A stretch of 64,000 nucleotides of DNA from Saccharothrix saharensis (lineage in GTDB: Bacteria; Actinomycetota; Actinomycetes; Mycobacteriales; Pseudonocardiaceae), in the NCBI RefSeq assembly GCF_006716745.1, contig NZ_VFPP01000001.1, forward strand, positions 7,451,386-7,515,385. Direction: 5' to 3'. The position numbers were made by a program, and so were the translations under genes. Below the pieces are notes generated by a model. It was not told where the DNA came from, did not search any database, and saw only the letters and a program-made list of their open reading frames with translations. Every line of letters begins with the position of its first letter. Position 1 is the stretch's first letter. Shown one piece after another: positions 40,918 through 64,000 of this stretch.

Positions 40918-41419
40918 GGCAACCCCTTCGGAACCGGATCTGATCACCCGCTCACCGTAGGAATCCGGGGGGCCGCCCTGCTTCGGTCGAATGACTGCAC
41001 CTCGTCTCAACCACCCCGCTTACGACTGCCGTCATCCGACTGGCGAGCCGCCCCCCGCGGCGGGCGTTCCCGGCGATCGCGTCCCCCGCTGTACGAGGTG
41101 ACCCGTGCGCTACGAGCTCGCTGCGGGTCGGCCGGCTACTGCAACGACCGGAAACCCTTCACGTCATCCGGATTGCCCTTGTCGCAGCCGTCACCCGCCC
41201 GCGGCCCGAGCTGCACCGCGATGTCGATCCGTTCCGACTGGTGGCGCTGTCTGCGCAGGTTGCGTTCACGTAGCTCTGGCAAGGCGGCTCTTCATCCGTT
41301 CGGGTGAAGGCTGCTGATCGTCGTAGCGAAGATCGGCTGCTCGTCGATGTGATCCACAACGTGCCCGACCTGATCACGACCCGGGCAGTCGGCTGTGACG
41401 AGAGTTGGGATCGCCCGCG
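40918..41419. other. non-coding region upstream of OLD gene
   Basis: About 500 bases between the start of the broken hydrolase (reverse) and the OLD nuclease (forward). A forward frame at about 41163-41280 reads VIRIALVAAVTRP onward and could be a fragment of a lost gene. The rest shows no coding pattern. GC content drops toward 41300-41420, and the OLD promoter is probably there. Confidence 0.4.
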
Positions 41420-44576: not shown

Positions 44577-44608
44577 TTGACTTTGGTGTGCGCTCCAACC
44601 CTTACCTT
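44577..44608 (+). promoter_or_regulatory. MerR-type promoter for MFS transporter
   Basis: TTGACT at 44577-44582 and TTACCT at 44602-44607 are 19 bases apart. The spacer has the dyad TTGGTG/CTCCAA, close to the other MerR-type promoters of the island. The MFS start is about 70 bases downstream, giving a normal leader with a ribosome binding site. Confidence 0.7.
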
Positions 44609-44677
44609 CGCCCCTGCTACCGGACTGTTCGGGGTCGCGCGGTGACGGCTGCGGGTCGGAGACACAGAGGGGAACGG

Positions 44678-46243: not shown

Positions 46244-46358
46244 CCAGTCGCGGCGAAAGGCTCTCGGCGGTGGCCCGGGCTGCTCAAGATGGGACGAAGA
46301 CGTGAATCGACCTGCTGTGAGGACTTCGGGCCACCCCGATGACGTGCGGACGGGGCAC

Positions 46359-46775
46359 GTGGCATCCGGGGACATGACGGTCGCCGGTCTGGCCCGGCGT
46401 GCCGGTGTGACCGGCGACCGCATCCGCTACTACGAACGAGTCGGTCTGCTGCCCGAACCTCCGCGCAGCGGATCGGGCTACCGGCGTTATGGGGAGGAAG
46501 CCGTCGACCGGCTCCGCTTCATCCAGGGCGCGCAACGACTCGGTCTGCGCCTGCGGGAGATCTCCGAGTTGCTCCAGATCCGCGACACCGGCCAGTGCCC
46601 GTGCGGTGACGCGGCGGTCCTGCTGCGCGACCGGATGGAAGAACTCGACCAGGAGATGGAGCGGTTGCAAGCGCTTCGGGCCGAGTTGTCGGCCATGGTC
46701 GAGCAGCTGCCCAGCGCCGAGTGCCCCAACCCGGAACCCGGCGTCTGGCGACCGGTCGTCATCACCGGTGGCTGA
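46359..46775 (+). CDS. MerR family metal-type regulator
   Basis: 138 residues from GTG 46359, chosen because it aligns with the start of the paralogue at 63656 (MESGEMTVAGL); ATG 46374 and an upstream ATG 46302 are alternatives. The helix-turn-helix is MTVAGLARRAGVTGDRIRYY with ERVGLLPEPPRSGSGYRRYG. A dimerisation helix follows, and the effector loop has Cys in TGQCPCGDAAVLL and a final SAECPNPE. These three Cys fit a soft-metal or zinc/lead/cadmium-type sensor. It probably acts on one or more of the three long-spacer promoters in this island. Confidence 0.85.
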   Translation: MASGDMTVAGLARRAGVTGDRIRYYERVGLLPEPPRSGSGYRRYGEEAVDRLRFIQGAQRLGLRLREISELLQIRDTGQCPCGDAAVLLRDRMEELDQEMERLQALRAELSAMVEQLPSAECPNPEPGVWRPVVITGG

Positions 46776-48168: not shown

Positions 48169-48594
48169 CTACTCGATGCGGGCGGTGATGGCCAGGCGGT
48201 TGAAGGCGTTGATCACGGCGACCACCCAGACGACCTGCTGGGTGAGCGCCGGCCCCAGGTCCGCGATGGCGGCGTCGAGGACCTCCTCATCGACGTGCGT
48301 GTCGGCGACGAGGGTGACGGACTCCGCCAAGGCGAAGATCCTGCGCTCCTGGTCCGTGAACGCGACGTTCGTCTCCCACTCGGCGACGTTGTCCACGCGA
48401 TCCTGCGTTTCCCCCGCGTGCAGGGCCTTCTCGATGTGCATGCGCACGCAGTAGGTGCAGCCGTTGATCTGCGAGCAGCGGAGCTTGATCAGCTCCACCA
48501 GGCCAAGGGGGAGTTCGGCGTCGTCGTCGACCGCCTTGGACAGCGTGCTCATCGCGGCGAAGCCGGGGCCTGCGAACGGGTCGAGCTTGGGCAT
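48169..48594 (-). CDS. carboxymuconolactone decarboxylase/AhpD-like protein
   Basis: 141 residues. The family signature is LIKLRCSQINGCTYCVRMHI with the CxxC pair (CTYC) and following His that form the AhpD-type thiol active site. Such proteins reduce or relay electrons to peroxidases, or act on small lactones. ATG follows GGAGAAACG. It lies just beyond the terminator of the P1B ATPase gene on the same strand. Its place in a metal island suggests a role in oxidative stress caused by metals. Confidence 0.85.
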   Translation of the reverse strand: MPKLDPFAGPGFAAMSTLSKAVDDDAELPLGLVELIKLRCSQINGCTYCVRMHIEKALHAGETQDRVDNVAEWETNVAFTDQERRIFALAESVTLVADTHVDEEVLDAAIADLGPALTQQVVWVVAVINAFNRLAITARIE

Positions 48595-48697: not shown

Positions 48698-51157
48698 TCA
48701 GTCGCCGGTGCGCCGCCCGAACTCGACTTGCTGCACCGTCTTGTCCGACGAGGAGCCGCATCCGCAGTCGTCGCCACAACCGCCACCGGAGGCCACGGGC
48801 CGTTCCAGCGGGACGATCTTCGGCGCCGTGACCTCGGGGGCTCCGACCTCGGCCTTCGGACCGCAGCCGCAGTCGTCACCGCAGCCACCGCCCGCGGACA
48901 CCGACTCGACCACCGGCAGTTCGAACGCGGTCTTCGGCAACGTCGCCGAGTGCTCGACCCGTGCCTTCGTCTGAGCTGTCACGGTCGTCCTCTGCTTTCC
49001 GCTCTTGCCGCCGCGCAGCAGCCGCAGGCCGTTGGCGATGATCACCAGGGCAAATGCCTCGTTGATCAGCACCCCTTGGGTCAGGTTGAACGCGCCGATC
49101 AGCGCCGCGACGACCAGGCCCGCGATGACGATCAGCGACATCGCGACGTTCTGCGCGATGATCCGGTTCGCCCGCCGGGCCAACCGCACGGTGTACGGCA
49201 GCTTGGTCAGGTCGTCTGACATCAGGGCGACGTCCGCGGTCTCCATGGCCACGTCCGTGCCCGCCGCGCCCATGACCACCGCGACGTTGGACGTCGCCAG
49301 CGCGGGCGCGTCGTTGACGCCGTCGCCGACCATCGCGACGGTGCCGTGCTCGTCGCGCATGGCGGTGATCGCGGCGCTCTTGTCGGCGGGCATCAGCTGC
49401 GCCCGCACGCTCTCGATGCCGAGCTGGTCGGCGATCGACCGGGCGACGCGCTCGCGGTCGCCGGTGAGCATCGTGGTGTGCGCGACGCCGAGCGAGCGCA
49501 GCTCGGTGATGGCGGTCCTGGCCTCGGGGCGGAGCTCGTCGGCCACACCCAGCAGGCCGATCAGGGCGCCGTCCGCGGTGACGGCGACCGGGGTGGCGCC
49601 GGCCTGCTCGATCTCGGCCAGCGCGGCGGCGGCCGAGGCGTCCTTGCTGTAGTCGGCGACGCGGCCGACCGCGATCCGGCGCCCGTCGACAGTGGCCTCG
49701 GCGCCCTTGCCCGCCACGATCGACACGTCGTCCGCGGGCCGGACGTCGACGCCGCGGTCACGGGCGGCGTGCACGATCGCCTCGGCGATCGGGTGGGTGG
49801 CGGCGGCTTCGACCGCGGCGGCCAGGCGCAGCAGTTCGTCGTCGTTGTCGCCGTCCAGGGTGTGCACGGCCACCAGGGCCGGGCGGCCCAGGGTCAGGGT
49901 GCCGGTCTTGTCGAACGCGACCGCTTTGAGCCGGCCGAGTTCTTCCAGGTAGGCGCCGCCCTTGATGAGCACGCCGTCACGGGCGGCGCGGGCCACCGCG
50001 GACACCACGCTGACCGGCACGGACAGCACCAGCGCGCAGGAGCAGGACACGATCAGCACGACCAGTGCCCGGTAGAACGCGTCGGTGAAGGACAGTCCGA
50101 ACACCAGCGGCCCGAGGACCACCATGAGGACCGCGACGCCGATCATCGCCGGCGTGTAGATCGCGCCGAACTTGTCGGCGAACCGCTGGGCGCGGCCGCG
50201 GTTCTGCTGTGCCTCCTCGACCTCGCGGATGACGCGGGCCAGGACGGTGTCCTGGTACTGCTTGGTGACCTTGACGCGCAGCGCGCCGTCACCGTTGAGC
50301 GTGCCGCCGTAGACGGCCTCGCCGGGCACGACCTCGACCGGCATCGACTCGCCGGTGATGGCGGAGGTGTCGACCCAGGACGCCCCTTGGGTGACCTCGC
50401 CGTCGGTGGGCAGCCGGGCACCGGGGCGCACCAGCACCAGGTCGCCGACTGCCAGGTCCTCGACCGGCACCGTCTCCACGGCTCCGCCGAAGGTGAACCG
50501 CTCCGCCCGACGCGGTGCCAGGTCCATCAGCTTCTGGATCGACTTGCGGGCCCGGTCGGCGACGAACGACTCCAGGATGATGCCCAGGGAGAAGATCACC
50601 ACGACGCACGCGGCCTCGACGAACTTGCCGAGCGGGATCGCGCCGATGACCGCCACGACCAGCAGCACGTTGATCGTGAACCGCTTGTTGCGCAGCATCA
50701 CCAGCGCGTTGCGGCCGGGGTGGATGATGCCGGTGGCGATCGAGATGACCGCCAGGGTGTTGGCCAGCGTGGTGGCCTCCGGCGCGCGCCTGGTGACGAT
50801 GTCCGCGGCGGCCATGAACAACGCGGCGATGCCCAAGAGGATCATCTCGGGACGCAACCACCAGCGCGACCTCTTCTGCGGCGCCTCGTCCACGACCGCC
50901 GGCTTCTCCGGTTCGAGGGTCAACCCGGAGGCGGCGGCGGTGCGCAGGAGCACGGTGTCGCTGAGCGTCTTCGGCGCCTGGATCGCGAGCACGCCGGACG
51001 CGGAGAGCATCTTGACGTCGCGCACGCCCTCGACCCGGCGCAACGGCGTGAGGTCGCTGGCGCACTCGACGCAGCCCGCGAGGACGCGGTACCGCCGCAT
51101 CTCCAGGCCCGCTTCCGCCGGAGCGTCCGCCCCGTTGGTTAAGGGTTGTGTGGTCAC
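48698..51157 (-). CDS. P1B-type heavy-metal ATPase with CSC motif
   Basis: 819 residues. An N-terminal metal-binding-like domain has VLAGCVECASDL. Membrane helices follow, then the actuator motif TGESMPVEV, the ion-channel motif VSCSCALVLSVPV, the phosphorylation motif AFDKTGTLTLG, the HP locus ATHPIAEAIV and the hinge MVGDGVNDAPAL. The usual CPC reads CSC, an unusual change at the proline. The C-terminus carries two copies of GGGCGDDCGCG, likely metal-binding. It should export a soft divalent metal. GTG 51157 lies about 45 bases after a MerR-type promoter. A strong hairpin follows the gene. Confidence 0.9.
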   Translation of the reverse strand: MTTQPLTNGADAPAEAGLEMRRYRVLAGCVECASDLTPLRRVEGVRDVKMLSASGVLAIQAPKTLSDTVLLRTAAASGLTLEPEKPAVVDEAPQKRSRWWLRPEMILLGIAALFMAAADIVTRRAPEATTLANTLAVISIATGIIHPGRNALVMLRNKRFTINVLLVVAVIGAIPLGKFVEAACVVVIFSLGIILESFVADRARKSIQKLMDLAPRRAERFTFGGAVETVPVEDLAVGDLVLVRPGARLPTDGEVTQGASWVDTSAITGESMPVEVVPGEAVYGGTLNGDGALRVKVTKQYQDTVLARVIREVEEAQQNRGRAQRFADKFGAIYTPAMIGVAVLMVVLGPLVFGLSFTDAFYRALVVLIVSCSCALVLSVPVSVVSAVARAARDGVLIKGGAYLEELGRLKAVAFDKTGTLTLGRPALVAVHTLDGDNDDELLRLAAAVEAAATHPIAEAIVHAARDRGVDVRPADDVSIVAGKGAEATVDGRRIAVGRVADYSKDASAAAALAEIEQAGATPVAVTADGALIGLLGVADELRPEARTAITELRSLGVAHTTMLTGDRERVARSIADQLGIESVRAQLMPADKSAAITAMRDEHGTVAMVGDGVNDAPALATSNVAVVMGAAGTDVAMETADVALMSDDLTKLPYTVRLARRANRIIAQNVAMSLIVIAGLVVAALIGAFNLTQGVLINEAFALVIIANGLRLLRGGKSGKQRTTVTAQTKARVEHSATLPKTAFELPVVESVSAGGGCGDDCGCGPKAEVGAPEVTAPKIVPLERPVASGGGCGDDCGCGSSSDKTVQQVEFGRRTGD

Positions 51158-51205: not shown

Positions 51206-51237
51206 ACGGTAAAGGTTGGACCCCACTCCAAGGTCAA
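51206..51237 (-). promoter_or_regulatory. MerR-type promoter for P1B ATPase
   Basis: On the reverse strand TTGACC is followed by a 19-base spacer containing TTGGAGTGGGGTCCAA and then TTACCG (TACCGT with 20). The layout matches promoters opened by MerR proteins and closely resembles the two at 44453 and 44577. Confidence 0.75.
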
Positions 51238-51314
51238 GCCCTGTTCTCGCCGCTTGACTTGAAGCCGAGTTCAACTTCGAGACTAGCCGCTGCCACCGTG
51301 TGAGGAGGAGATCG

Positions 51315-51641
51315 GTGACTTACGTGATCGCGGAACCCTGCGTCGACGTGATGGACAAGGCGTGCATCGAGGAGTGCCCCGTCGACTGCATCTACGAAGG
51401 CGACCGCATGCTCTACATCCACCCCGACGAGTGCGTCGACTGCGGTGCGTGCGAGCCGGTCTGCCCGGTCGAGGCCATCTACTACGAGGACGACGTGCCC
51501 GAGCAGTGGGCGCACTACACCAAGGCCAACGCCGACTTCTTCGCGGAACTGGGGTCGCCGGGGGGTGCCTCGAAGGTCGGCAAGGTCTCGGCCGACCCGC
51601 AGGTGATCAGGGACCTGCCCCCGCAGGGCGACCCGGCCTGA
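51315..51641 (+). CDS. fdxA: 7Fe ferredoxin
   Basis: 108 residues. The N-terminal part has VTYVIAEPCVDVMDKACIEE with CPVDC, and the second cluster motif is CVDCGACEPVCPVEAIYYED. This is the FdxA type with a 3Fe-4S and a 4Fe-4S cluster. GTG 51315 follows GAGGAGGAGATCG. It carries electrons to oxidoreductases or P450s. It is 74 bases before the NRPS gene in the same direction and may be co-transcribed, but such ferredoxins are also common housekeeping genes. A TTGAA-N6-TTCAA dyad at 51259-51274 lies upstream. Confidence 0.92.
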   Translation: MTYVIAEPCVDVMDKACIEECPVDCIYEGDRMLYIHPDECVDCGACEPVCPVEAIYYEDDVPEQWAHYTKANADFFAELGSPGGASKVGKVSADPQVIRDLPPQGDPA

Positions 51642-51715
51642 GCCGCCTCACCGGCACGACCGGCAGCCCACCCCGGCGGCACCTCCGACGCGCATCCGGA
51701 AGACGAGGGGACACC

Positions 51716-54700
51716 ATGACCATCACCGATCCGATGCCGCCCATCCTCGGCGAGCTGGCACGCACGGAGATCAGGGTCCGGCTCGTCGGGAACAACGAGC
51801 TCGAGGTCAGCGCGCCGCGCGGCGCGCTGACGGCTCACCTGCGCGACCGCATCGTCGCCGACAAGCCGGCGATCATCCGCTGGCTGTCGGGAGCCGCGCG
51901 CACCGCGCACGCCCTGCCGCAGGTCGTGCCGGACCCGGTGGCGGCCGACGAGCCGTTCCCCCTGTCCGACCTGCAGACCTCGTTCCTGGTGGGCTCCGCC
52001 GAAGGGCTGGAGTACCACGTCCGGCCTCACCAGTACATGGAGTTCGACCTGGTCGACCTGGACGTGGAGAGGTTCGTCGACGCGGTGAACCGCAACCTGC
52101 TGCGGCAGCGGGACAACCTGGTCGCCGTCACCGAGGACATGAGACTTCGGCGCATACCGGAGTTCGTGCCGCTGGAGCCGGTGGTCCACGACTTCCGGGG
52201 CATGCCCGAGGAGCAGGTGCGGAGTGAACTGCTGCGGATCCGCGAAGGGGTCCGCCGCCGGCAACTGCCGCTGAACCGGTGGCCGTGGCTGGACATCCGG
52301 ATCAGCCTGCACGGCGAGCGGGACGCCCGCATCCACTACAACAACAACAACTTCTTCAGCGACGGCATGGGCACCAGCCGCTTCCTGGACGCCGTGTTCG
52401 GCCTCTACCGGGACCCGGCACTCGTGCTGCCCGAGTTGGAGATCAGCTTCCGGGACTGCATCGTCACGCTGTCCGAGATCGAGCGGTCCCCCCTCGGACA
52501 GGAGTCCGAGAAGTACTGGCGGGACCGCATCCCGGAGTGGCCCGACGCGCCCTCGATCCCGCTGGCGACCGGCGCGCAGGCACAGGGCAGGTCCGAGCTC
52601 AACCGCCGCGAGCTCGTGCTGTCCGCCGAGCAGTGGACCGCGCTGAAGCGGCGTGCCCGAGCCCACGGCCTGACCGACAGCAACGTGATGTACGCGGCCT
52701 ACGCCGAGGTCGTGGCCACCTGGAGCGGTACCAAGCACTTCCTGCTCAACAACATGGTCACGCACCGCCTGCCGCTGCACCCGCAGATCGGCGAGATCAT
52801 GGGCAACTTCGCCTCGCTGTACCCGCTGGAGGTCGACTGGCGGGGTGACGAGTCCTTCGAGGCCAAGGCACGACGGCTGCGCGCCCAAGTGCTGCAGGAC
52901 ATGCAGCACACGCACTGGAGCGGCGTGAAGGTGCTCCAAGCGCTCAACCAACACCGTCGCACCCCCGGTCGGGCGGCGTGCCCGTTCGTCATCAGCAGCG
53001 GCCTGTTCATGGGCAAGTTCGACCGGCCCACCTACTCGACCCTCGAAACTCCGCAGGTGCTGCTCGACTGCCAGTTCTGGGAGCAGGACGACGGCACGAT
53101 GTGGATCGCCTGGGACGTCATCGAATCGATGTTCCCGAACGGCGTCATCGACGCCATGCTCGACGCCTTCCACCGGCTCGTCGTCGGCCTGGCGAGTGAC
53201 GACACGTGGTGGCAGCGCACCGCCTTCGACCTCGTCCCCGACAGCGATCTCACCGCGCGCCGCGCGCTCAATCAACTGCCGCACCACGTTCCTGACGGCC
53301 TGCTGCACGACGCGCTGGCCGAGCGCGCCGTCGACTCGGCGGATCGAGTCGCCGTGCGCACCCCGACCAACACCGTGACGTACCGCGAGTTGCACGAGCA
53401 GAGCACGCACGTGGCGGCGTCACTGCGGAACGCGGGTATGACCCCTGGGCAGCTCGTGCCGGTCGTGCTGCCGAAGGGGTGTCGGCAATCAGCCGCTGTG
53501 CTGGGGGTGCTGTCGGCAGGCGGCGCCTACGTCCCCATCGACCCCGAGTGGCCGGTCGATCGGATCGCGCACCTGTTCAAGGCGAGCGAAGCCGAGCACG
53601 TCGTGACCGTCGACGCCCTGCACGACCGCATCGCCGATCTCGGAGACGTGACCGTCCACGTGGTCGGGACGGAGGTCACCCAGCTTCCGGTCGAGCCGGT
53701 GCCCCGGCGGGACCCGCTGGACCTCGCCTACGTCATCTACACCTCTGGTTCCACCGGCACGCCCAAGGGCGCCGCCCTCGACCACCGCGGACCGCTGAAC
53801 ACCGTCGTCGACATCAACGACCGGTTCGGCATCGGCGCGGCGGACGTCGTCTTCGGCATCTCCTCGCTGTGCTTCGACCTGTCCGTCTACGACGTGTTCG
53901 GCACCGTTGCGGCGGGCGCGACGCTCGTGCTGCCCGACCCGTCCGAGCTGCACGATCCCCGCGCTTGGGTGTCCACGATCAGGTCGGCCGGTGTCACGGT
54001 GTGGAACTCGGTCCCGGCGCTCATGCAACTCGCGGTCGAGGAGGCCGAGGCCACCGGCCTGACCATGCCATCGCTGCGGGTGGTCATGCTCAGCGGCGAC
54101 TGGATCCCCGTCGACCTGCCCGACCGCATCCGCCGGGTCGCGCCGAACGCGCGCGTCATCAGCCTGGGCGGCGCGACGGAGGCGTCGATCTGGTCGATCC
54201 ACCACCCCGTCGACGAGGTCGACCCGGCATGGACCAGCGTCCCCTACGGCAAGCCCTTGGGCGGGCAGACCTGGCACGTGCTGGACGAGGGTGGGGCCGA
54301 CGCGCCGACCTGGGTGCCCGGACACCTGCACATCGGCGGCGTCGGCGTGGCCGTCGGTTACTTCAACGACGAGGAGCGCACCAACGCCGCCTTCGTCACC
54401 CACCCGCGGACCGGTGAGCGGCTCTACCGGACCGGCGACCTGGGCCGCTACCTGCCCGACGGCACGATCGAGTTCCTCGGCCGCGCCGACTTCCAGGTCA
54501 AGATCCAGGGCTTCCGCGTGGAACTCGGCGAGATCGAGCACGTCCTGACGCAGCACCCGGCCGTGTCCAGGGCCCTGGTCACCGTCCGCGACACCGTCGC
54601 CGGCCGCCAGCTCGTCGGCTTCGCCGCCGCGACGGGTGTCGACGGCGAGGAGGTGCGCGAGTTCCTGGCCGAGCGGCTGCCGAGGTACATGGTGCCGGCC

Positions 54701-55873
54701 AACGTCACCGTCCTCGACCGGTTGCCCTTGACCTCCAACGGCAAAGTCGACCGACGTGCCCTCGACGCACTGGCCCCCGCCGACAGCGAGCCCGCACGGG
54801 AGTACGTCGCGCCGCGCACCGACCTCGAAGCCGAGGTGGCCGCCATCTGGGCATCGGTGCTGGAGTTGCCGCGGGTCGGTGTGTTCGAAGACTTCTTCGA
54901 GCTCGGCGGCCAGTCCTTCGCGGGCCTCCGGGTGATCAGCCAGATCTCCCGGCAGCTCGGCAAGCGCCTGTCGTTGGGTGCGTTGCTGTCCGGGCGCACC
55001 GTCGCGGCGCTGTGCGAGCACCTGAGCCAGGCCCGAACCTGGTCGACGCTGGTCCCGCTGCGCGAGAACCCCGGCGCGCCCAGGGTCTTCCTGGTCCACC
55101 CGGCCGGCGGCAGCGTGCTGGCCTACCGGCCGCTGGCCGAACTCGTCGACGCCGAGTGGTACGGCGTGCAGGCGCCCGGGCCCGACTCCGGCCAGGAGGT
55201 GCCCGTGGAGGTGGAGGACTTCGCCGTCCGCTACGTGGAGGAGATCCGCCGCGTACAGCCGCACGGGCCCTACGTCCTCGGCGGCTGGTCGTCAGGCGCG
55301 GTGATCGCGGCGCACGTCGCGCACAAGCTGGAACTGGGTGGCGACCGCGTGAGCCGCCTGTTCGTGTTCGACTCGCCCGCCCCGATGCCCGCGCCCGAGG
55401 TCGACCCGGTGTCGATGCTGCTGTGGTTCCTCGAAGACCTCGACCTGGGTTTCCACGCCGACGACGCGACCGCGGACGAACGCGCCGCCCTGCTCGCCGT
55501 TCCCGAGCACGATCGGCTCCGCGCGGGTCTGGAGATGCTCGAACGCCGCACCGGCCGCGCGGTCGCGGTCGACGAGGCGCACCTGCGCAACACGTACGCG
55601 GTGTTCACCGGGGTCGTGCACGCCTGTCGACGGCACAAGCCCACCGTCATCGGCGCCGACGTGCTGGTCGTCCGAGCCGCCGACGGCGTGGTGAGCGAGT
55701 TCGCCGACCACCCGCACGCCGCCGACGCCGACTGGGGGTGGCGCACCCTCACCACGGGCACCGCGACCGGTGTCGCCCTGCCGGGCACCCACTACACGCT
55801 GCTCACCGACCAGCACGTCATCCCCGTCGCGGACGCGGTGCGCGACCACCTCGAACCAGTGCTGGAGGCATGA
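51716..55873 (+). CDS. NRPS: docking-Cy-A(Cys)-PCP-TE
   Basis: 1385 residues. Residues 1-60 are a TubC-type docking domain (ELARTEIRVRLVGNNELEVS). Residues 85-510 are a heterocyclization-type condensation domain: CPFVISSGLF, LLDCQFWEQDDG and AWDVIESMFPNG are Cy features, but the DxxxxDxxS motif reads NNFFSDGMG. The adenylation domain (535-1040) has YVIYTSGSTGTPKGA. Its pocket elements FDLSVYD, NSVPALM and SLGGATEASIW fit the cysteine code. A PCP (FFELGGQSF, near 1060) and a thioesterase (LGGWSSGAV, near 1189; GTHYTLL) end the protein. It should condense an acyl chain with Cys, cyclise to a thiazoline and release the acid. GAGGGG precedes ATG. Confidence 0.9.
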   Translation: MTITDPMPPILGELARTEIRVRLVGNNELEVSAPRGALTAHLRDRIVADKPAIIRWLSGAARTAHALPQVVPDPVAADEPFPLSDLQTSFLVGSAEGLEYHVRPHQYMEFDLVDLDVERFVDAVNRNLLRQRDNLVAVTEDMRLRRIPEFVPLEPVVHDFRGMPEEQVRSELLRIREGVRRRQLPLNRWPWLDIRISLHGERDARIHYNNNNFFSDGMGTSRFLDAVFGLYRDPALVLPELEISFRDCIVTLSEIERSPLGQESEKYWRDRIPEWPDAPSIPLATGAQAQGRSELNRRELVLSAEQWTALKRRARAHGLTDSNVMYAAYAEVVATWSGTKHFLLNNMVTHRLPLHPQIGEIMGNFASLYPLEVDWRGDESFEAKARRLRAQVLQDMQHTHWSGVKVLQALNQHRRTPGRAACPFVISSGLFMGKFDRPTYSTLETPQVLLDCQFWEQDDGTMWIAWDVIESMFPNGVIDAMLDAFHRLVVGLASDDTWWQRTAFDLVPDSDLTARRALNQLPHHVPDGLLHDALAERAVDSADRVAVRTPTNTVTYRELHEQSTHVAASLRNAGMTPGQLVPVVLPKGCRQSAAVLGVLSAGGAYVPIDPEWPVDRIAHLFKASEAEHVVTVDALHDRIADLGDVTVHVVGTEVTQLPVEPVPRRDPLDLAYVIYTSGSTGTPKGAALDHRGPLNTVVDINDRFGIGAADVVFGISSLCFDLSVYDVFGTVAAGATLVLPDPSELHDPRAWVSTIRSAGVTVWNSVPALMQLAVEEAEATGLTMPSLRVVMLSGDWIPVDLPDRIRRVAPNARVISLGGATEASIWSIHHPVDEVDPAWTSVPYGKPLGGQTWHVLDEGGADAPTWVPGHLHIGGVGVAVGYFNDEERTNAAFVTHPRTGERLYRTGDLGRYLPDGTIEFLGRADFQVKIQGFRVELGEIEHVLTQHPAVSRALVTVRDTVAGRQLVGFAAATGVDGEEVREFLAERLPRYMVPANVTVLDRLPLTSNGKVDRRALDALAPADSEPAREYVAPRTDLEAEVAAIWASVLELPRVGVFEDFFELGGQSFAGLRVISQISRQLGKRLSLGALLSGRTVAALCEHLSQARTWSTLVPLRENPGAPRVFLVHPAGGSVLAYRPLAELVDAEWYGVQAPGPDSGQEVPVEVEDFAVRYVEEIRRVQPHGPYVLGGWSSGAVIAAHVAHKLELGGDRVSRLFVFDSPAPMPAPEVDPVSMLLWFLEDLDLGFHADDATADERAALLAVPEHDRLRAGLEMLERRTGRAVAVDEAHLRNTYAVFTGVVHACRRHKPTVIGADVLVVRAADGVVSEFADHPHAADADWGWRTLTTGTATGVALPGTHYTLLTDQHVIPVADAVRDHLEPVLEA

Positions 55874-55875
55874 TC

Positions 55876-58800
55876 GTGAGTCGCGACTTCCCCCTGCTCG
55901 TCGACGTGCTGCGCGACCACGCCGTCAAGCGCGCCGACGGCGTCGCCCTGATCGTGCTCGCCGACGGCGAGACCGAGCACACCCGGCTCACCTACGCCGA
56001 ACTCGACGCCCGCGTCCGCGAACTCGCCGCACGCATGCAGCACACCGGCCTGACCGGCGAGCGGGTGATCATCATGCTGCCCACCAGCGTCGAGTACGTC
56101 GTCAGCGTGCTGGCCTGCCTTTACGCGGGCGCGGTGCCGGTGCCGCTCAACCCGCCCACCAAGAGCACCCACCGCGAGCGCGTCGACCACGTCGTGGAGG
56201 ACTGCCGACCCGCGTTGGCGATCGTGGCCTCCACCGAGGGGCCGATGGCGCACCTGCCGGAGGAGTACGGCTGCAGTCTCTGGTCCGTCGAAGACCTCGC
56301 CGCGTACGCCGCCTATGACTGGAGCCCTCCGGCGACCAGCCCGGACGACGTCGCCTACCTGCAGTACACCTCCGGATCCACCAGTCGGCCCCGCGGTGTG
56401 GTGGTCACCCACGACAACATCGTCTACCAGCCGGCGCTGTTCAGCACCGGCCTCGGCATGGACTCGCGGGAAGTCGTCGTCACGTGGCTGCCGCTCTTCC
56501 ACGACTTCGGCCTGATCGCCGGGCTGTTCATGCCACTGCTGCTGGGCGCCACCACGGTGATGATCCCGCCGCCGGTGTTCGTGCAGCGACCGCTGCGCTG
56601 GCTCGCCGCCGTCAGCAAGTACCGAGCGACGGTGTCGTTCAGCCCGAACTTCCCCTTGGACCTGTGCTGCGAGCGCATCACCGAAGAGGAGAAGGCGACG
56701 CTGGACCTGAGCACTTGGAGGGTGCTCGCACTGGGTGCCGAGCCGATCCGGGCCGACACCGTCGACCGGTTCGCCGAGGAGTTCGCCTCCTGCGGGTTCC
56801 GGCCCGACTCGTTCCGCACCGCCTACGGCATGGCCGAGTCGACGCTGGCGGTCACCACGCACCCACCGCGCAACGGGCTCAGGGTCGTCGAGGTCGACGT
56901 CGAGGGCTTCGCGCACGGACGGGTCGACGTCGTCCCCGCCGGCACGCCGGGACCACGTCGTCAGCGCCTGCTCAGCAACGGTCCGTCCCTCGGCGACACC
57001 CGGATGATCGTGGTCGACCCCGAAACCCGTGAACCCTTGCCGGAGGGCCGCGAGGGTGAGATCTGGTTGGGCGGTCGCACGGTCGCGGCCGGCTACTGGA
57101 ACCGGCCGGACGACACCGCCGAGACCTTCGGCGCCCACTTGGCCGACGGCACCGGCCCGTACCTGCGCACCGGTGACCTCGGCACGCTGATCGACCGCGA
57201 GGCCTACATCACCAGCCGCCGCAAGGACCTGATCATCATCCGGGGGCGCAACCACCACCCGCAGGACATCGAGCTGACCATGACCGACGCCCACCCCGCG
57301 CTCAACCGCGGCCTCGGCGTGGCCTTCTCCGTCGACGTCGACGGCGAGGAACGCCTGGTCGTCGTCCAGGAGCTCAAGCGCACCGAACGCGGCAAGCACG
57401 ACCTGGCCGAAGTCGCACGGAAGGTACGCGGCGCCGTCGCCGAAGAACACGACGTGGCCATCGACACCGTCGTGTTCATCCGGCCCGCGTCGCTGCCCGT
57501 GACCACCAGCGGCAAGGTCCGCAGGCAGTTCACCAAGCGGGCTTACCTGCGCGGGGAGCTCAAGGTCGAGCACGCCTCCGGTCCGGTGACGGCCGCTGCG
57601 CCCACCGAGGCCACCGCGGACCGCGACACGGCGTCCGTCGTCGAGTGGCTGCGCGCCCGCGTCGCGGCCAAGACCGGCCTCACGCCCGCCGACGTCCCGG
57701 TGGACGCGACCTTCGGCGGCCTGGGGCTGGACTCGGCTCAAGCCCTCGGCCTCAGCGGGGACCTCGCCGCGTGGCTCGGCCGGCCCGTCGACCCCGCGAC
57801 CCTCTACGGCAACCCGACGATCCTCCGCTTGGCCGTCGCGCTCACCACGGGTGTCAAGACGCCCGCCACCGCCGAACCCGTCGCGTCGACCGAGTCGATC
57901 GCCGTGGTCGGCATGGCCTGCGCGTTCCCCGGCGCGGACTCGGTCGACGACTACTGGTCATTGTTGTCCGAGGGACGCGACGCGGTGACCGAGGTGCCGG
58001 CCGACCGCTGGTCCACCGACTCGTGGTACCGCGAGGGAGCGCCGGTCCCGGGACACAGCACCACCAAGTGGGGAGGGTTCCTGCCCGACGTCGCCGGGTT
58101 CGACGCGCGGTTCTTCGGCGTGTCCACCGAGGAGGCCGCGGCGATGGACCCCCAGCAGCGACTGCTCCTCACCACCGCTTGGCGGGCGCTCGAAGACGCC
58201 GGTGTCCCGGCCGACGCGATCGCGGGTGCCAACGTGGGCGTCTTCGCCGGCATCAGCACCACCGACTACAGCCGGCTCATGGTCCGCGACCACGTCGAAC
58301 CGGGCGCCTACACCGGCACCGGGACCTCGCTGAGCGTCGCGGCGGGCCGCATCTCCTACTTCCTCGACCTCACCGGGCCGAGTGCGTCCACCGACACCGC
58401 CTGCTCGTCGTCTTTGGTGGCCGTGCACAACGCGTGCGAGAGCCTGCGGCGGGGTGAGTGCGACACCGCGATCGTCGGCGGCGTCAACCTGCTGCTCGAC
58501 CCCGACCTCGTGGTGGCGTTCTCCCAGGCCGGGATGATGTCGCCGACCGGGAGCTGCAAGACTTTCGACGCGTCGGCCGACGGGTACGTGCGGGGCGAAG
58601 GCTGCGGCGTGGTCGTGCTCAAGCGCCAGACCGACGCCGAACGGGACCAGGACCGGATCCGGGCGCTGGTCGTGGGCTCGGCGGTCAACCAGGACGGCCG
58701 CAGCAACACCCTCACCGCGCCCAACGCCCTGGCACAGCAAGCGGTCATGCGGCGTGCGCTGGCCGACTCCGGCCTGGCCCCGGGCGATGTCGGCTACGTC

Positions 58801-61800
58801 GAGGCGCACGGCACGGGAACGAGCCTCGGTGACCCCGTCGAGCTGGCCGGTATCGCCGCCGTCTACGGCGCGCCGGAGGCGAAGAGCCCGCTGTGGGTGG
58901 GATCGGCCAAGACCAACCTCGGCCACCTGGAAGCCGCCGCCGGTGTCGCCGGCCTGCTCAAGGCGATCCTGGCGGTCGAGCACGGCCTCGTGCCGCCCCA
59001 CCTGCACTTCGAGCAGCTCAACCCGCACGTCACGCTGGACGGCACCCGGTGCCGGATCCCGACCCGACCGCAACCGTGGTCGGACGAGGAAGGTCCCCGC
59101 GTGGCCGCCGTCAGCTCGTTCGGCTTCAGCGGCACCAACGCGCACGTGATCGTCCGGCAGGCACCACAACGTCCCCGCCCGACCGATGACGACTCGGGCA
59201 CCTGGCGGATGCTGCCGCTGTACGCCAAGAGCGACCGCGCGCTGGCCGAACTGACCGACGCCGTGGTCGACGTGCTCAACCGGACCGAAGGCGGCGCGGA
59301 CTTCGCCGCGCTGTGCCGCGTCGCTCACCGGCGCACCCGCTTCCCGTACCGCACGACCGTCGTCGCGCGCACGGCCGCGGAAGCGTTCGAAGCACTGCGC
59401 GAGCACCGGTCCGGGACACCGTCAGCGTTCGTCCTGACCGGCACCGTGCCCGACACGGGACCGGGACCGCTCGCCTGGATGTTCCCCGGCCAGGGGTTCG
59501 CGCGCACCGGTATGGCCAGGCCGCTGTACCAGCGCCACCAGGCCTTCCGCGACGCCCTCGCCGAGGTCGACGCGATCGTGCGGGCCGACCTCGGTGCCTC
59601 CCTGCTGCCGACCCTCGCCGGCGAAGGAGGCGAGCTGGTCGACCTGGCGCAGACCCGCTACGGGCAGCCCGCCATGTTCGCCACCCAGTACGCCGTGGCG
59701 CGGTTGTGGCGTGAGTTCGGCGTCGAACCCGATTACCTCATCGGTCACAGCTTGGGTGAGTTCACCGCCGCGGCGATCTCCGGCGTGCTCACCCTTGAAG
59801 ACGCCACAGGCCTCGTCCTGCTGCGCGCACGTCTCATGCAGCAGACCCCGCCCGGCGCCATGTACGCCGTGCGCACCGAGCACGTCGAGGAACTGCTGGA
59901 TGAACTCCAGGACGGTGACGTCGCGATCGCGGCGTTCAACAGCCCGGGGGACATCACGATCTCCGGCCCGGAAGGCGCGACGGAGGAATGCGCGGCGCGT
60001 TGGGTGCAACGCGGTGCCACGGTGACCAGGCTGAGCGTCAACCGAGCGTTCCACTCGCCGCTCATGGGACCCGTGGCCGACGCCCTCGCCGACCAGGTGC
60101 GGCACGTCCGGCACCACGAAGCGCGCATCCCGATCGTCTCGACGCTCAGCGGCGAGCTGCTGCCCGCGTCGGAGCCGACCGGTGCCCATTGGGTCGACCA
60201 ACTGCGCCGCCCCGTCCGGTTCGCCGAGGGCCTGAGGACGCTCGGCCGGCTCGGCGTCCGGCACTTCGCCGAGATGAGCCCCGAACCCGTGCTCTCCCCG
60301 CTCGGGCCGCGCAGCGTGCCCGACGCGACCTGGCTGACCAGCGGCCACCGACAGGACGAGGACGACCGGCGACTGGTGCTGTCCCTGGCCGCCTGGCACA
60401 GCTCCGGCGGCACGGTGGCCTCCCGGGCCGGCGACGGTCCCGTCGACCCGGCCGCACTGCCGGGCCACCCCTTGAGGGCGGACCGCCACTGGTACACCCC
60501 CGGCGCGATCCGCGACCGGCGAGCGCCCGGTCACCCCTTGCTCGGTCATCGCGTCGACATCGCGGGCGCGCCCAGCGAGTGGTTCTCGGCCGAGATCGGC
60601 GCGACCCGGCCGTGGTTCGTCGAGCAGCACCGGATCGGGGGAGCCGCCCTGCTGCCGGGCGCGGCGATGACCGAGTGGATCACGGCCGCCGCGAAGGCCG
60701 TGCTCGGCGGCGACACGTGGACCATCGACGACATCCGGTTCACCAGCGCACTGTCCCTCGAACCCGGTCGGACCGCGACCGTCCAGGCGGTCGTCGACCC
60801 GGCCGGGGGAGCGGTCGACTGCTACGCCCGCCGCGACGGCGACGACCGCTGGACGCCCAGGGCGCGAGCCGGTGCCGCGCGCCGCGGTGCGGTCGCGCCC
60901 GGAGCAGGCCGTTCCGCGGAGGAACTGGCGTGGGAGCTGGTCAGGCAAGACCCGGACGCGCTGTACTCACGCTTCGCCGCCGCGGGAATGGCCTACGGGC
61001 CCGCGTTCCGCGGGGTCAGGCAACTGTGGCTCGGGCGTGACGAGGCCGTGGGGCGGATCAGCGTGGACACCGGGCGCCCGGAAGACAGGTCCTACACCCT
61101 GCACCCGGTCGTGCTCGACGCCTGCCTGCACGTCGCCGCCGCCTTCATCCCCAACCTGCCCAGCCCTCTGGTGCCCGTCGCGGTCGAGCAGGTCGTGGTG
61201 CACGCCCCGCTGCCCGGCGACCTGTGGTCCCACGCCAAGTCCCGTGGCGTGCGGGACTCCGGCGAGCACGTCGTCGACGTGCGGCTGACCTCCACCACCG
61301 GCACCGTCCTCGCCGAGCTGCGCGGCCTCGTCCTGCGTCCTGTCGGCACCGCGCTCCACGCACCACTGCGCCAGTACACAGTGGACTGGGTGCGGGCGGA
61401 GCTGCCCGAACCCGCGCGCCCGGGTGGGGGTTGGCTGCTCGTCGGACCTGATGACGACACCACCCTGGACTGGGAGGAGCGCCTGCGCGCCAAGGGCATC
61501 TCCGCATCCGGGTACACAGGGCGCGATGTGCCCGGCGACGTCACCGGCATCGTGGTCATCGGGGCGACACCGCGCAGCGACGACCTGGCCGGGTTCGAGG
61601 AGTCCGCGCGGCGCGCCGTCCTGCCCCTCAGGGAAGTGCTGCCAGGACTGGCCGCGCAGCGTCCGACGATCATCCTGTGCACCGAGCACGCGGCCGGCAC
61701 TCCCGGCGACGTGCCGCGCGTGGCGCGTGCCGCGCTCGCCGGCGTCGCCGCCGCCTTGACCGCCGAGTACCCCGACCTGCCGGTGGTCCACGTCGACCAC

Positions 61801-63069
61801 GACGGGACCGCCGAGCCGTCCGACGTGGTGTCCCGGGCCACCGGCCTCGGCGGATCGGGCAGGCTCGCGCTGCGCGACGGCGAGTGGCTCCGAGCCCGGT
61901 TGCGCGCCACCGAGCCGGACGCCGTCGACCTCCAACTCCGCGCGGACGGCACCTTCATGATCACCGGTGGCTGGGGCGCGCTCGGCCGCGTCACCGCCCG
62001 GCACCTGGTCGAGCACGGCGCGCGGCACATCGCGCTGGTGGGCAGGCGCAGGCCCGAGCCGGACCCCGACTGGGTCGTCGAACTCCGCGAGCGGGCCGAG
62101 GTCGTGCTGCTGACCGCCGACGTCACCGATGAGGGCGACCTGCACAACGCGCTGGCCAGGATCGCCGAGGACATGCCGCCGTTGCGCGGCGTCGTCCACG
62201 CGGCGGGCACCACCGACGACGGGGCGTTCGCCGACCTCGACTGGTCCCGGTTCGAGCACGTCCTGGCCGCCAAGGCCCGGGGTGCGTGGAACCTGCACCG
62301 GATCACCCGGGGCGATCAGCTCGACCTGTTCGTGGTGTTCTCGTCGTTCGCCTCGTTGATCGGGTCCGCCGGGCAGGCGAACTACGTGGTGGCCAACGCC
62401 TTCCTGGACGCCTTGGCGGACGTGCGGCAGGCACAAGGGCTTCGCGGCACCAGCGTCAACTGGGGGCCGTGGTCGGACGGTGGCCTCGCGACCGGCGAAG
62501 GGTTGGCGGAGAAACTCGCCCGCGGCGGCCTGCACGGCATCAGCGACGACGAAGGAGCGTCCGTGCTGTCGGCGGTGCTCGCCGGCGGCCACACCCGGCT
62601 CGGTCTGGCCAAGGTCGACTGGGACCGCTACCTCGCCGTCAACGGCGGATCGGCCGACAACACGCTGCTCTCGGCCCTCGGAGGGACCACTGAGCGGACA
62701 ACGCCGACGGCACCGGACGTGAGTGAACTGGTCCTGACCGACCCCGAAGGCGCGGAAGCCGAGGTGACCGACCTCCTGCTCCGGGAAACGTCGGTGCTGC
62801 TGGGGCTCAGCGCCGTCGACCGGGAGGAACTGCGGGCGAGGTTCGCCGACACCAGATTGACCAACCTCGGCCTGGACTCCCTCATGGGTGTCCGACTGCG
62901 AGACCGGTTGCTCACCGGCCTGTCGGTCGCGCTGCCCGGCGAGGCGCTCTTCGACGGCAGCACCGTCCGGGACATCGTGAAAGACCTGTGCAAGCAGATC
63001 GCGGTGAAGGCTGTCGTGCGCGAGGAGGAAGTCCCCGACTCCGACGACCTGGAAGTCGTCCGACTGTGA
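55876..63069 (+). CDS. FAAL-loaded PKS: FAAL-ACP-KS-AT-DH-KR-ACP
   Basis: About 2397 residues. The GTG is favoured because GGAGG lies seven bases upstream; an in-frame ATG 55870 overlaps the NRPS stop. Order: fatty acyl-AMP ligase (LQYTSGSTSRPRG, residues 1-580); ACP (GLGLDSAQALG, near 615); KS with TACSSSL and EAHGTG (675-1110); AT with GHSLGEF and RAFHSPL, as in malonyl-specific domains; DH with HRIGGAALLPG and VLDACLH; KR with ITGGWGALG and the S-Y-N active site around GQANYVVANAF; and ACP (GLDSLMG, near 2332). No enoyl reductase is present, so an enoyl chain is expected. The end SDDLEVVRL resembles a docking tail. It should act before the NRPS. Confidence 0.92.
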   Translation: MSRDFPLLVDVLRDHAVKRADGVALIVLADGETEHTRLTYAELDARVRELAARMQHTGLTGERVIIMLPTSVEYVVSVLACLYAGAVPVPLNPPTKSTHRERVDHVVEDCRPALAIVASTEGPMAHLPEEYGCSLWSVEDLAAYAAYDWSPPATSPDDVAYLQYTSGSTSRPRGVVVTHDNIVYQPALFSTGLGMDSREVVVTWLPLFHDFGLIAGLFMPLLLGATTVMIPPPVFVQRPLRWLAAVSKYRATVSFSPNFPLDLCCERITEEEKATLDLSTWRVLALGAEPIRADTVDRFAEEFASCGFRPDSFRTAYGMAESTLAVTTHPPRNGLRVVEVDVEGFAHGRVDVVPAGTPGPRRQRLLSNGPSLGDTRMIVVDPETREPLPEGREGEIWLGGRTVAAGYWNRPDDTAETFGAHLADGTGPYLRTGDLGTLIDREAYITSRRKDLIIIRGRNHHPQDIELTMTDAHPALNRGLGVAFSVDVDGEERLVVVQELKRTERGKHDLAEVARKVRGAVAEEHDVAIDTVVFIRPASLPVTTSGKVRRQFTKRAYLRGELKVEHASGPVTAAAPTEATADRDTASVVEWLRARVAAKTGLTPADVPVDATFGGLGLDSAQALGLSGDLAAWLGRPVDPATLYGNPTILRLAVALTTGVKTPATAEPVASTESIAVVGMACAFPGADSVDDYWSLLSEGRDAVTEVPADRWSTDSWYREGAPVPGHSTTKWGGFLPDVAGFDARFFGVSTEEAAAMDPQQRLLLTTAWRALEDAGVPADAIAGANVGVFAGISTTDYSRLMVRDHVEPGAYTGTGTSLSVAAGRISYFLDLTGPSASTDTACSSSLVAVHNACESLRRGECDTAIVGGVNLLLDPDLVVAFSQAGMMSPTGSCKTFDASADGYVRGEGCGVVVLKRQTDAERDQDRIRALVVGSAVNQDGRSNTLTAPNALAQQAVMRRALADSGLAPGDVGYVEAHGTGTSLGDPVELAGIAAVYGAPEAKSPLWVGSAKTNLGHLEAAAGVAGLLKAILAVEHGLVPPHLHFEQLNPHVTLDGTRCRIPTRPQPWSDEEGPRVAAVSSFGFSGTNAHVIVRQAPQRPRPTDDDSGTWRMLPLYAKSDRALAELTDAVVDVLNRTEGGADFAALCRVAHRRTRFPYRTTVVARTAAEAFEALREHRSGTPSAFVLTGTVPDTGPGPLAWMFPGQGFARTGMARPLYQRHQAFRDALAEVDAIVRADLGASLLPTLAGEGGELVDLAQTRYGQPAMFATQYAVARLWREFGVEPDYLIGHSLGEFTAAAISGVLTLEDATGLVLLRARLMQQTPPGAMYAVRTEHVEELLDELQDGDVAIAAFNSPGDITISGPEGATEECAARWVQRGATVTRLSVNRAFHSPLMGPVADALADQVRHVRHHEARIPIVSTLSGELLPASEPTGAHWVDQLRRPVRFAEGLRTLGRLGVRHFAEMSPEPVLSPLGPRSVPDATWLTSGHRQDEDDRRLVLSLAAWHSSGGTVASRAGDGPVDPAALPGHPLRADRHWYTPGAIRDRRAPGHPLLGHRVDIAGAPSEWFSAEIGATRPWFVEQHRIGGAALLPGAAMTEWITAAAKAVLGGDTWTIDDIRFTSALSLEPGRTATVQAVVDPAGGAVDCYARRDGDDRWTPRARAGAARRGAVAPGAGRSAEELAWELVRQDPDALYSRFAAAGMAYGPAFRGVRQLWLGRDEAVGRISVDTGRPEDRSYTLHPVVLDACLHVAAAFIPNLPSPLVPVAVEQVVVHAPLPGDLWSHAKSRGVRDSGEHVVDVRLTSTTGTVLAELRGLVLRPVGTALHAPLRQYTVDWVRAELPEPARPGGGWLLVGPDDDTTLDWEERLRAKGISASGYTGRDVPGDVTGIVVIGATPRSDDLAGFEESARRAVLPLREVLPGLAAQRPTIILCTEHAAGTPGDVPRVARAALAGVAAALTAEYPDLPVVHVDHDGTAEPSDVVSRATGLGGSGRLALRDGEWLRARLRATEPDAVDLQLRADGTFMITGGWGALGRVTARHLVEHGARHIALVGRRRPEPDPDWVVELRERAEVVLLTADVTDEGDLHNALARIAEDMPPLRGVVHAAGTTDDGAFADLDWSRFEHVLAAKARGAWNLHRITRGDQLDLFVVFSSFASLIGSAGQANYVVANAFLDALADVRQAQGLRGTSVNWGPWSDGGLATGEGLAEKLARGGLHGISDDEGASVLSAVLAGGHTRLGLAKVDWDRYLAVNGGSADNTLLSALGGTTERTTPTAPDVSELVLTDPEGAEAEVTDLLLRETSVLLGLSAVDREELRARFADTRLTNLGLDSLMGVRLRDRLLTGLSVALPGEALFDGSTVRDIVKDLCKQIAVKAVVREEEVPDSDDLEVVRL

Positions 63070-63073
63070 TCGA

Positions 63074-63475
63074 TCAGCGGTGACCGGTGTCCACGAGCGA
63101 GTCCGCCGAAGTCGGGGCGGGCTCGGTCTCGTGGGCATCGGCCACCGGGCGATCGGGCCCGAACATGATCACGAGCACGCCGACCAGGCAGATCCCGACA
63201 CCGATCAGGTCCCAGCGGTCCGGGCGGAACTTGTCCACGACCACGCCCCAGATCAGCGCGCCGATGATGAACACGCCACCGTAAGCGGCGAGGACCCGGC
63301 CGAAGTTCGAGTCCGGCTGCAGCGCGGCTACGAAACCGTAGAAGCCGAGGACCACGACACCGCCCGCCAGCCACAGCAGGCCGCGGTGCTCCCGCAGGCC
63401 CTGCCAGATCAACCACGTCCCACCGATCTCGGCGAGCGCGGCCAGCGCGAACAGGACCACGGTCTTGATGGGCAT
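63074..63475 (-). CDS. YnfA family small membrane protein
   Basis: 133 residues with four membrane helices. It begins [20 protein letters not shown] and has [20 protein letters not shown] and [19 protein letters not shown], all typical of the YnfA/UPF0060 family, which is distantly related to small multidrug transporters. A tail of about 25 hydrophilic residues is longer than usual. It converges on the PKS gene with four bases between stops and is divergent from a MerR gene, which may control it. Confidence 0.85.
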
Positions 63476-63655
63476 GGCGCCATGATAGGTCACGCTGAAG
63501 TGACGGCCGGACACGCCCAGTATTCGAGATGTGCGAGGTGGCCCGTGTCATGCTCCGATCGGGCGCCCGAGTTCCTTCGTTCGAACAATGGGACAATGCG
63601 CCAAGTGCTCTCGCGTGATCGTTCATTCAGCGGTGATGTGGAGTAGAATCAGGGC
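63476..63655. promoter_or_regulatory. divergent promoter region ynfA-type / merR-type
   Basis: 180 bases between a reverse YnfA gene and a forward MerR gene. TAGAAT at 63644-63649 lies six bases before the MerR ATG, so that message looks leaderless. GTTCGAAC at 63579-63586 is a perfect dyad and may be an operator. TCACTTCAGCGTGA, a partial dyad, lies just upstream of the YnfA start. Confidence 0.5.
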
Positions 63656-64000
63656 ATGGAATCTGGAGAAATGACGGTCGCGGGATTGTCCCGGCGCACC
63701 GGGGTTCCGAGCGACAGCATCCGGTATTACGAACGTGTCGGCCTGCTGCCGAAACCGCCGCGCACCGGAGCCGGTTACCGGCGGTACGGCGAGGACGCCG
63801 TCGACCGGCTCCAGTTCATCCAGGGGGCGCAACGGCTGGGGCTCCGGCTGCGCGAGATCAACGACCTGCTCTCGATCCGCGACACCGGGACGTGCCCCTG
63901 CGGCGACGCGGCGGTCCTGCTGCGCGAGCGCATGGAAGAGATCGACAACGAGATGAAGCGCCTCCAGGCGCTGAAGAGCGAGCTCTCCGCGATGGTCGGT
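63656..64000 (+). CDS. MerR family regulator, 3' cut by window end
   Basis: The first 115 residues are present. The sequence MTVAGLSRRTGVPSDSIRYY with ERVGLLPKPPRTGAGYRRYG and TGTCPCGDAAVLLRERMEE is closely related to the MerR protein at 46359, so the two are paralogues sensing similar ligands. The end with the last Cys lies outside the window. ATG 63656 is probably leaderless after TAGAAT. It is divergent from the YnfA gene and is a likely regulator of it. Confidence 0.88.
   Translation, partial: MESGEMTVAGLSRRTGVPSDSIRYYERVGLLPKPPRTGAGYRRYGEDAVDRLQFIQGAQRLGLRLREINDLLSIRDTGTCPCGDAAVLLRERMEEIDNEMKRLQALKSELSAMVG

Follow-up and report, generated by a model that had tools for sequence, protein, structure and literature searches.

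A FAAL-PKS and NRPS gene pair with MerR-type promoter elements in a metal-gene island of Saccharothrix saharensis

Efflux islands for zinc, cadmium and lead of the ZntA/MerR type comprise a P1B ATPase, MerR regulators and long-spaced MerR-type promoters. Among described assembly lines, the thiolactomycin-type TlmA/TlmB, as outlined in PMC5518548, run from KS-AT-DH-KR-ACP to a Cy domain, a predicted cysteine A domain, a PCP and a TE, with a KSQ starter, the AT motif YASH, an iterative PKS, a P450 and sulfur-relay genes; for TueB the same account states the Cy motif DxxxxDxxS. The last modules of piscibactin and photoxenobactin synthesis, described in PMC9396620 as lines with a salicylate start, several thiazolines and a canonical Cy4 motif, also handle cysteine with a late Cy, A, carrier and TE, and their Cy domains have been proposed to cyclise poorly. 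In micacocidin and massiliachelin, whose products are siderophores, a FAAL-loaded PKS feeds a cysteine NRPS (PMC6604713). As to the chemistry of these domains, work on yersiniabactin Cy2 describes a salt bridge between the helix-1 Arg and the first Asp of the motif in EpoB-Cy and PchE-Cy1, and assigns a part in cyclodehydration to a Thr-Asp dyad and a Gln close by; mutations of the dyad severely affected this step (PMC9547227).

Here we analyse a window of 64,000 nucleotides from S. saharensis (contig NZ_VFPP01000001.1, positions 7,451,386 to 7,515,385), whose genome is a single contig of 8.9 Mb. With about even confidence, and judging from the sequence, we propose that it holds a MerR-controlled metal-island assembly line which would make a lipid-tailed, cysteine-derived, perhaps methylated compound.

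Layout and domains of the gene pair

The features of the locus are collected in Table 1. The domains and outer limits given by an earlier sequence-only reading were borne out, 51716 being the ATG of an MTITDPM start inside the open reading frame 51362-55873 and 63069 the stop of gene 2. Its two-gene layout holds as a pair, but coordinates and translation put the NRPS first and the FAAL-PKS second, the start of the latter overlapping the NRPS stop codon. That the NRPS begins with a docking domain and finishes with a TE points to transfer of the chain from PKS to NRPS, even with the PKS gene in second place.

Table 1. Coordinates of the gene pair, its neighbours and the putative operators, on the numbering of the window.
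Feature	Position	Strand	Basis or remark
NRPS gene 1	51716-55873	+	docking–Cy–A–PCP–TE (Pfam, translation, motif tables)
Gene 1 TubC_N docking	51746-51886	+	Pfam
Gene 1 Cy-type condensation	51956-53236	+	Pfam Condensation
Gene 1 A	53318-54745	+	Pfam AMP-binding and its C-terminal domain
Gene 1 PCP	54833-55024	+	Pfam PP-binding
Gene 1 TE	55082-55834	+	Pfam Thioesterase
FAAL-PKS gene 2	55870-63069	+	FAAL–ACP–KS–AT–DH–KR–ACP (Pfam, NCBIfam, PDB, active-site alignment)
Gene 2 FAAL	55912-57573	+	Pfam AMP-binding
Gene 2 first ACP	57643-57834	+	Pfam PP-binding
Gene 2 KS with C-terminal extension	57892-59358	+	Pfam ketoacyl-synt N and C
Gene 2 AT	59476-60297	+	Pfam Acyl_transf_1
Gene 2 DH	60532-61347	+	Pfam PKS_DH_N and PS-DH
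Gene 2 KR	61948-62478	+	Pfam KR
Gene 2 C-terminal ACP	about 62700-62960	+	Pfam PP-binding
Operator A (putative), before FdxA-NRPS-PKS	51254..51284	+	TTGAC, dyad TTGAAGCCGAGTTCAA, GAGACT at 19-base spacing
Operator B (putative), before ATPase gene	51212..51237	-	alignment, 6/6 loci
FdxA-type ferredoxin, second genome copy, first of presumed transcription unit	51300..51641	+	NCBIfam FdxA_Actino 186.7 bits, over cut-off
P1B heavy-metal ATPase, Zn/Cd/Pb group by similarity	48698..51157	-	TM6 CSC not CPC; Cys-rich tail CGDDCGCG
AhpD-like carboxymuconolactone decarboxylase-family gene	48169..48594	-	neighbour in L037, L038, L040, G232
MerR3, close MerR1 paralogue, after MFS gene	46302..46775	+	NCBIfam, alignment
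DHA2/EmrB-type MFS exporter; start probably further in	44588..46243	+	Pfam, NCBIfam
YnfA/UPF0060 small membrane protein	63074..63514	-	neighbour in 5/6 minimal loci (the sixth's contig stops earlier)
MerR1 regulator, three conserved Cys (CPC and later C)	63656..64000, on to 64072	+	Pfam, NCBIfam
MerR2, outside window	66976-67629		beside methyltransferase gene

The reductive steps agree with that reading as well: KR and DH were found by Pfam with intact motifs, and no ER family was reported as such by Pfam in gene 2. At least one malonyl-type extension is likewise supported by a KS and an AT with intact active-site motifs. By alignment, the motifs of KS, AT (RAFH), DH (HxxxGxxxxP) and KR, the serines of both carriers and the TE serine look intact. 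Loading of a fatty acid by a FAAL also stood up, the closest relatives of the loader being fatty-acid-AMP ligases, though under the curated cut-offs of the models (fatty-acid-AMP ligase is its best AMP-ligase model in NCBIfam, with 423 bits against a cut-off of 775). Its best PDB matches, 7r7e-g with 469 bits, are named only 'Polyketide synthase'; FadD23, FadD32 and a 'Fatty Acyl-Adenylate Ligase' follow lower down, a relationship to AMP-ligases rather than CoA-ligases. The nearest solved chains to the KS are 7zma and CurL, the latter a modular PKS.

The Cy domain and its clade

By predicted fold and by sequence, the condensation domain of gene 1 is a Cy domain. The best eight solved relatives in the PDB are Cy domains or Cy-containing NRPSs, led by EpoB, Irp2, HMWP2 and the bacillamide Cy, and an AlphaFold2 model of this part (13 rows, mean pLDDT 82.3) lies closest to EpoB-Cy 5t7z, at a TM of 0.89. 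In place of the canonical DxxxxDxxS, which the earlier reading passed over, it has NNNNFFSDGMG, that is NxxxxDxxG.

We compared 49 Cy rows, namely the window, 13 clade relatives and 35 others, all 23 family loci being included. The clade sits on a branch with support 100/100 and a long stem of 0.82; the tree tool warns of a possible misplacement of L048, a long row. The helix-1 Arg is absent from all 14 clade members (Ser 11, Gly 2, Asp 1) and present in 30/35 others, and the first Asp of DxxxxD is Asn in 14/14 and Asp in 32/35 others; both partners of the salt bridge thus appear to be gone together in the clade, as far as the columns correspond in the alignment. The second Asp is found in every one of the 49 rows, the 14 of the clade included. 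At the dyad Thr the clade has Ser (6/14, the window among these) or Gly (8/14), and the 35 others have Thr 25, Ala 5 and Ser 5. The dyad Asp is retained in 14/14 clade rows and the helper Gln in 9/14, again with the window.

In four of the 35 other rows (L018, L029, L035 and L053) Ser stands for the dyad Thr and Glu for the dyad Asp; we take these to be of the dithiolopyrrolone type, which presumably makes no thiazoline, and L053, from a Streptomyces finlayi plasmid, to be a holomycin-type, HlmE-like NRPS. The L053 NRPS is like that of the window in its cysteine-type module and in the Ser of the dyad; unlike it, it comes without an annotated PKS in the stretch shown, has Glu for the dyad Asp and keeps the first Asp and the helix-1 Arg.

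The thiazoline ring predicted by the sequence-only reading keeps the support of a Cy fold (solved relatives and the model alike) and of the dyad Asp, and in the window the helper Gln and a dyad Ser that retains its hydroxyl can be added. It is not secure, since the helix-1 Arg, first Asp and dyad Thr are each missing throughout the clade, and the severe effect of dyad mutations (PMC9547227) counts against it. The loss of the first Asp alone need not be fatal, its mutation having given only a twofold decrease of one photoxenobactin (PMC9396620). A domain that still cyclises would give a 2-(1-alkenyl)-thiazoline-4-carboxylic acid, an outcome that we hold possible at somewhat less than even confidence.

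A domain that only condenses would give N-(2-enoyl)-cysteine, whose free thiol may be methylated by a methyltransferase that shares the NRPS operator (see below). We entertain this tentatively, as a possibility that falls short of an even chance. The three clade losses favour it, as do the Ser of the dyad in the four rows named above, which have in addition Glu for the dyad Asp, and the methyltransferase and SAM-cycle genes under the NRPS operator. On the other side, the thiol specificity of the methyltransferase is presumed from a resemblance to the thiol-methylating TMT1/MddM enzymes; its PDB matches are other methyltransferases only, with no thiol methyltransferase among these solved structures, and one genome (G126) has the methyltransferase without the clade NRPS. 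If the assembly line proposed here is confirmed, this rare clade would offer a direct test of the residues that separate condensation from cyclisation.

Read by eye, the A-domain code of the window is DLYNMSLIW, and D-L-Y-N-M/L-S-L-I-W recurs in all 12 clade rows with an A domain (none is in view in L039). We take this, with a numbering of positions that is likewise assumed, to be a cysteine code, and the activation of Cys claimed earlier is thereby made probable.

The earlier reading knew no exact match for the layout; this does not hold, since the same pair is present in five other family genomes, in one of them only as fragments. Among 297 family genomes sampled, the minimal pair thus occurs in six: the window, L037, L038, L039 (fragmentary), L040 and G232. 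In L039 (Saccharomonospora) the NRPS ends after 544 residues and is followed by mid-PKS at the contig end, a break treated as an assembly gap since the translation of L065, a locus that overlaps it, contains runs of unknown residues. Larger 'B' clusters (L041-L047, 7/7) and the plasmid locus L049 carry a second NRPS after the clade NRPS; these second NRPSs keep DxxxxD in the eight loci, except L045b, where the first Asp is Asn. The second NRPS is followed by a GMC oxidoreductase in both loci that were checked, L049 and L041. FAAL-PKSs like that of the window occur in L042, L043 and L049, the PKSs of L041, L046 and L047 are more distant, and L044 and L045 have no PKS in the stretch examined. 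As two architectures share the NRPS, the clade Cy-A(Cys)-PCP-TE looks like a terminal cysteine cassette with varied partners. For the product of the 'B' clusters, literature searches gave no match among the matches listed. L048, a gammaproteobacterial MAG, matches at 31% for the PKS gene and 41% for the NRPS gene. G171 (Amycolatopsis, 'B' type) is the seventh genome with a clade NRPS among the 297 and is not one of the ATPase carriers; in the phylum, the clade (E<=1e-90) was found in 1/396 sampled genomes, the window's own. A different row of genes was seen on the Nostoc plasmid pNLP2 (L050, 5124-21413), with a vanadium-dependent haloperoxidase, an AMP-binding protein, a P450, a PKS, an NRPS and an MFS exporter.

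Metal genes and putative operators

What the sequence-only reading had left out is the gene context. The NRPS-PKS pair is preceded by an FdxA ferredoxin gene in the same direction and is divergent from a P1B heavy-metal ATPase. Among solved structures the ATPase is closest to ZntA 4umv, and against NCBIfam it exceeds the heavy-metal and Cd-family cut-offs and stays under those of the ZntA and Cu models. Its TM6 reads CSC instead of the ZntA-type CPC, as does that of the other five minimal-cluster copies (6/6 in all), of G126 and of two plasmid homologues. The latter (Micrococcus, Dietzia) adjoin ArsR/SmtB regulators, and C-terminal repeats like CGDDCGCG are seen in the window ATPase and four relatives (L061-L064).

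In 6/6 minimal-pair genomes of the 297 sampled, one of them fragmentary, the NRPS is flanked by the ATPase and FdxA. Of 25 genus genomes, 4 have the ATPase (E<=1e-150), and a second FdxA, shortened in G232, and the clade NRPS are found in the same four; two such sets would coincide exactly with a chance of 1 in 12,650 if genomes were independent, which related genomes are not. In the family, 7/297 genomes have the ATPase (E<=1e-190), the six with the minimal pair and G126, and no ATPase of the window's type was found in the 'B' clusters L041-L047 and L049.

Beyond the window end lie genes for an amino-acid permease, a methyltransferase with MerR2, an SAH hydrolase and an SAM synthetase. The permease, the methyltransferase and MerR2, and also MerR1, were present in 4/4 relatives fetched there, and in its class the methyltransferase (E<=1e-60) was found in 1/394 genomes, the window's own. 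The genome has an excess of MetK (3 copies) and AhcY (2 copies). Both extra genes stand behind an NRPS-like MerR-type site, the SAM synthetase (69215-70555 on the window scale) sharing 99% identity with another copy in residues 51-446, and the SAH hydrolase (67685-69211) likewise 99% with another copy in residues 23-508. MerR1, MerR2 and MerR3 score under the cut-off of every metal-specific NCBIfam model matched (MerR1 best MerR, 92 bits). MerR2, which lacks its first Cys in L057, is extended at the C-terminus by a region that might serve to detect a small molecule. Among the neighbours scanned, no gene for metallophore uptake was recognised. Upstream of the island, an AAA ATPase with an OLD-like TOPRIM domain (41405-43315) is a possible defence gene.

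The G126 genome has the ATPase, methyltransferase, YnfA, permease and MerR together without the clade NRPS; it is not among the genomes listed with a Cy match, and the 34 kb fetched gave A-domain matches and no such Cy. In this genome, MerR, methyltransferase, small MerR, P1B ATPase, YnfA and permease form a compact block (L085, 9372-17944). This arrangement indicates that the metal and methylation module is separable from the assembly line, and the methyltransferase may serve that module and not the NRPS product.

Two MerR-like elements are kept between the ATPase and FdxA in 6/6 aligned loci. On the NRPS side, TTGACTTGAAGCCGAGTTCAAC is followed by GAGACT at 19-base spacing in 6/6, with one mismatch in L039 and none in the others. 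The ATPase-side element shows 0 to 6 mismatches to the reference TTGACCTTGGAGTGCGGTCCAACCTT in 6/6 loci, and by eye TANCGT stands about 20 bases after it in all six; a promoter of this kind, with TANCGT, resembles that of zntA. A search for operator B gave one site in the window and 0 in shuffles, and a loose pattern built from these same sites gave three in the window against 0.05 expected. When up to 3 mismatches were allowed, a search of the whole own genome gave two sites for the NRPS element and none for the control. A looser NRPS-side motif, written after the third own site had been seen, has 12 sites, three in each of 4/25 genus genomes, with 0 in the other 21 and 0 in 25 for the reversed control; because of this loosening, independent evidence comes only from its absence in 21 genomes and from its presence in G292 and G232.

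The first operator-A site lies before FdxA-NRPS. The second precedes methyltransferase-MerR2 in the own genome and all four relatives fetched, and the third precedes MetK-AhcY in the own genome, AhcY in G206 and G232, and MetK in G292, there on another contig. The position of MerR2 in one of these units suggests, from sequence, that it may bind the shared operator. An operator-B-like site with 4 mismatches (44577-44602) precedes the MFS exporter gene, also in L038 and L040. In the 'B' clusters (L041-L047, L049) no operator A was found, and G126 has operator-A-like sites before the methyltransferase and before a peptidase-C39 ABC exporter.

A biosynthetic unit and metal genes that merely travel together, without shared function, would fit the few carriers, the patchy distribution and the G126 module. 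We think it unlikely, as operator A joins the NRPS to methyltransferase-MerR2 and the SAM-cycle genes at three places per genome, the third of them on another contig in G292.

Proposed pathway and comparison with known systems

In the assembly line that we propose, the FAAL would load a fatty acid onto the ACP, and KS-AT-DH-KR would add a two-carbon unit to give a 2-enoyl chain, which the NRPS, with its cysteine-type A domain and TE, would receive through the TubC-type docking domain. The atypical Cy would then join cysteine to the enoyl chain, and release by the TE would yield the product, probably a lipid-tailed N-enoyl-cysteine, its thiazoline or an S-acyl variant, perhaps methylated by the operator-sharing methyltransferase. 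Synthesis would take place when MerR2 senses metal or thiol stress, and the product would likely bind soft metal ions (Zn/Cd/Pb/Cu group) and hold or move them with the neighbouring ATPase and exporter. The adjoining heavy-metal pump gene and the metal-stress type of promoter suggest for it a possible part in metal handling, as a sulfur compound with a fatty chain; the metal ligand guessed earlier thus gains support that is independent, though indirect, from gene neighbourhood and promoters.

A more specific version, unlikely when taken with all its parts, is a lipid-thiol system induced by metal or thiol stress, in which a non-cyclising Cy would cap the enoyl chain with cysteine to give a thiol that sits in the membrane, binds metal and is tuned through S-methylation, with SAM recycling of its own, one MerR and a CSC-type P1B pump. 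Such a system would, if true, be an assembly-line counterpart to phytochelatin or metallothionein. A literature search gave, among the matches listed (titles and abstract openings), no NRPS-PKS unit under a MerR-type metal promoter, and confirmation would tie a secondary metabolite to metal tolerance.

Release by sulfur transfer as proposed for photoxenobactins, with the Cy forming an S-acyl thioester and C-S cleavage giving an enoyl thiocarboxylic acid, is improbable. In its favour, inefficient Cy domains giving thioester-derived termini have a precedent in PMC9396620, and a TE is present. No lyase, P450 or desulfurase was recognised in the neighbouring proteins scanned, which argues against it. 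Improbable as well is an iterative PKS that makes an alkylsalicylate for an alkylphenyl-thiazoline metallophore, which the metal context would suit but a KS closest to 7zma and the modular CurL would not. FAAL, ACP, KS, AT and KR also compose micacocidin-type lines (PMC6604713), but a DH with intact motifs is present here and none appears in the domain list of the legend in that source. No Ralstonia record was among the 40 plasmid matches listed of 570.

Compared with micacocidin and massiliachelin (PMC6604713), the line proposed here shares a FAAL-loaded PKS feeding a cysteine NRPS and differs in its DH, its altered Cy and the absence of further modules. It resembles the last modules of piscibactin and photoxenobactin (PMC9396620) in the late cysteine-handling Cy, A, carrier and TE, and departs from them in its fatty acid start, single Cys module and altered motif. 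With TlmA/TlmB (PMC5518548) it has the order of PKS and NRPS domains in common, but with FAAL and RAFH in place of KSQ and YASH. We rejected a thiotetronate assignment on account of the FAAL starter, the AT RAFH where such lines have a methylmalonyl AT, the altered Cy motif and the missing tailoring genes, no P450, desulfurase or sulfur-relay genes having been recognised in the neighbours scanned around the pair. The P1B ATPase, MerR regulators and long-spaced MerR-type promoters of the window are like those of Zn/Cd/Pb efflux islands; unlike them, it puts an NRPS-PKS unit under such a promoter and has CSC, not CPC, in TM6 of its ATPase.
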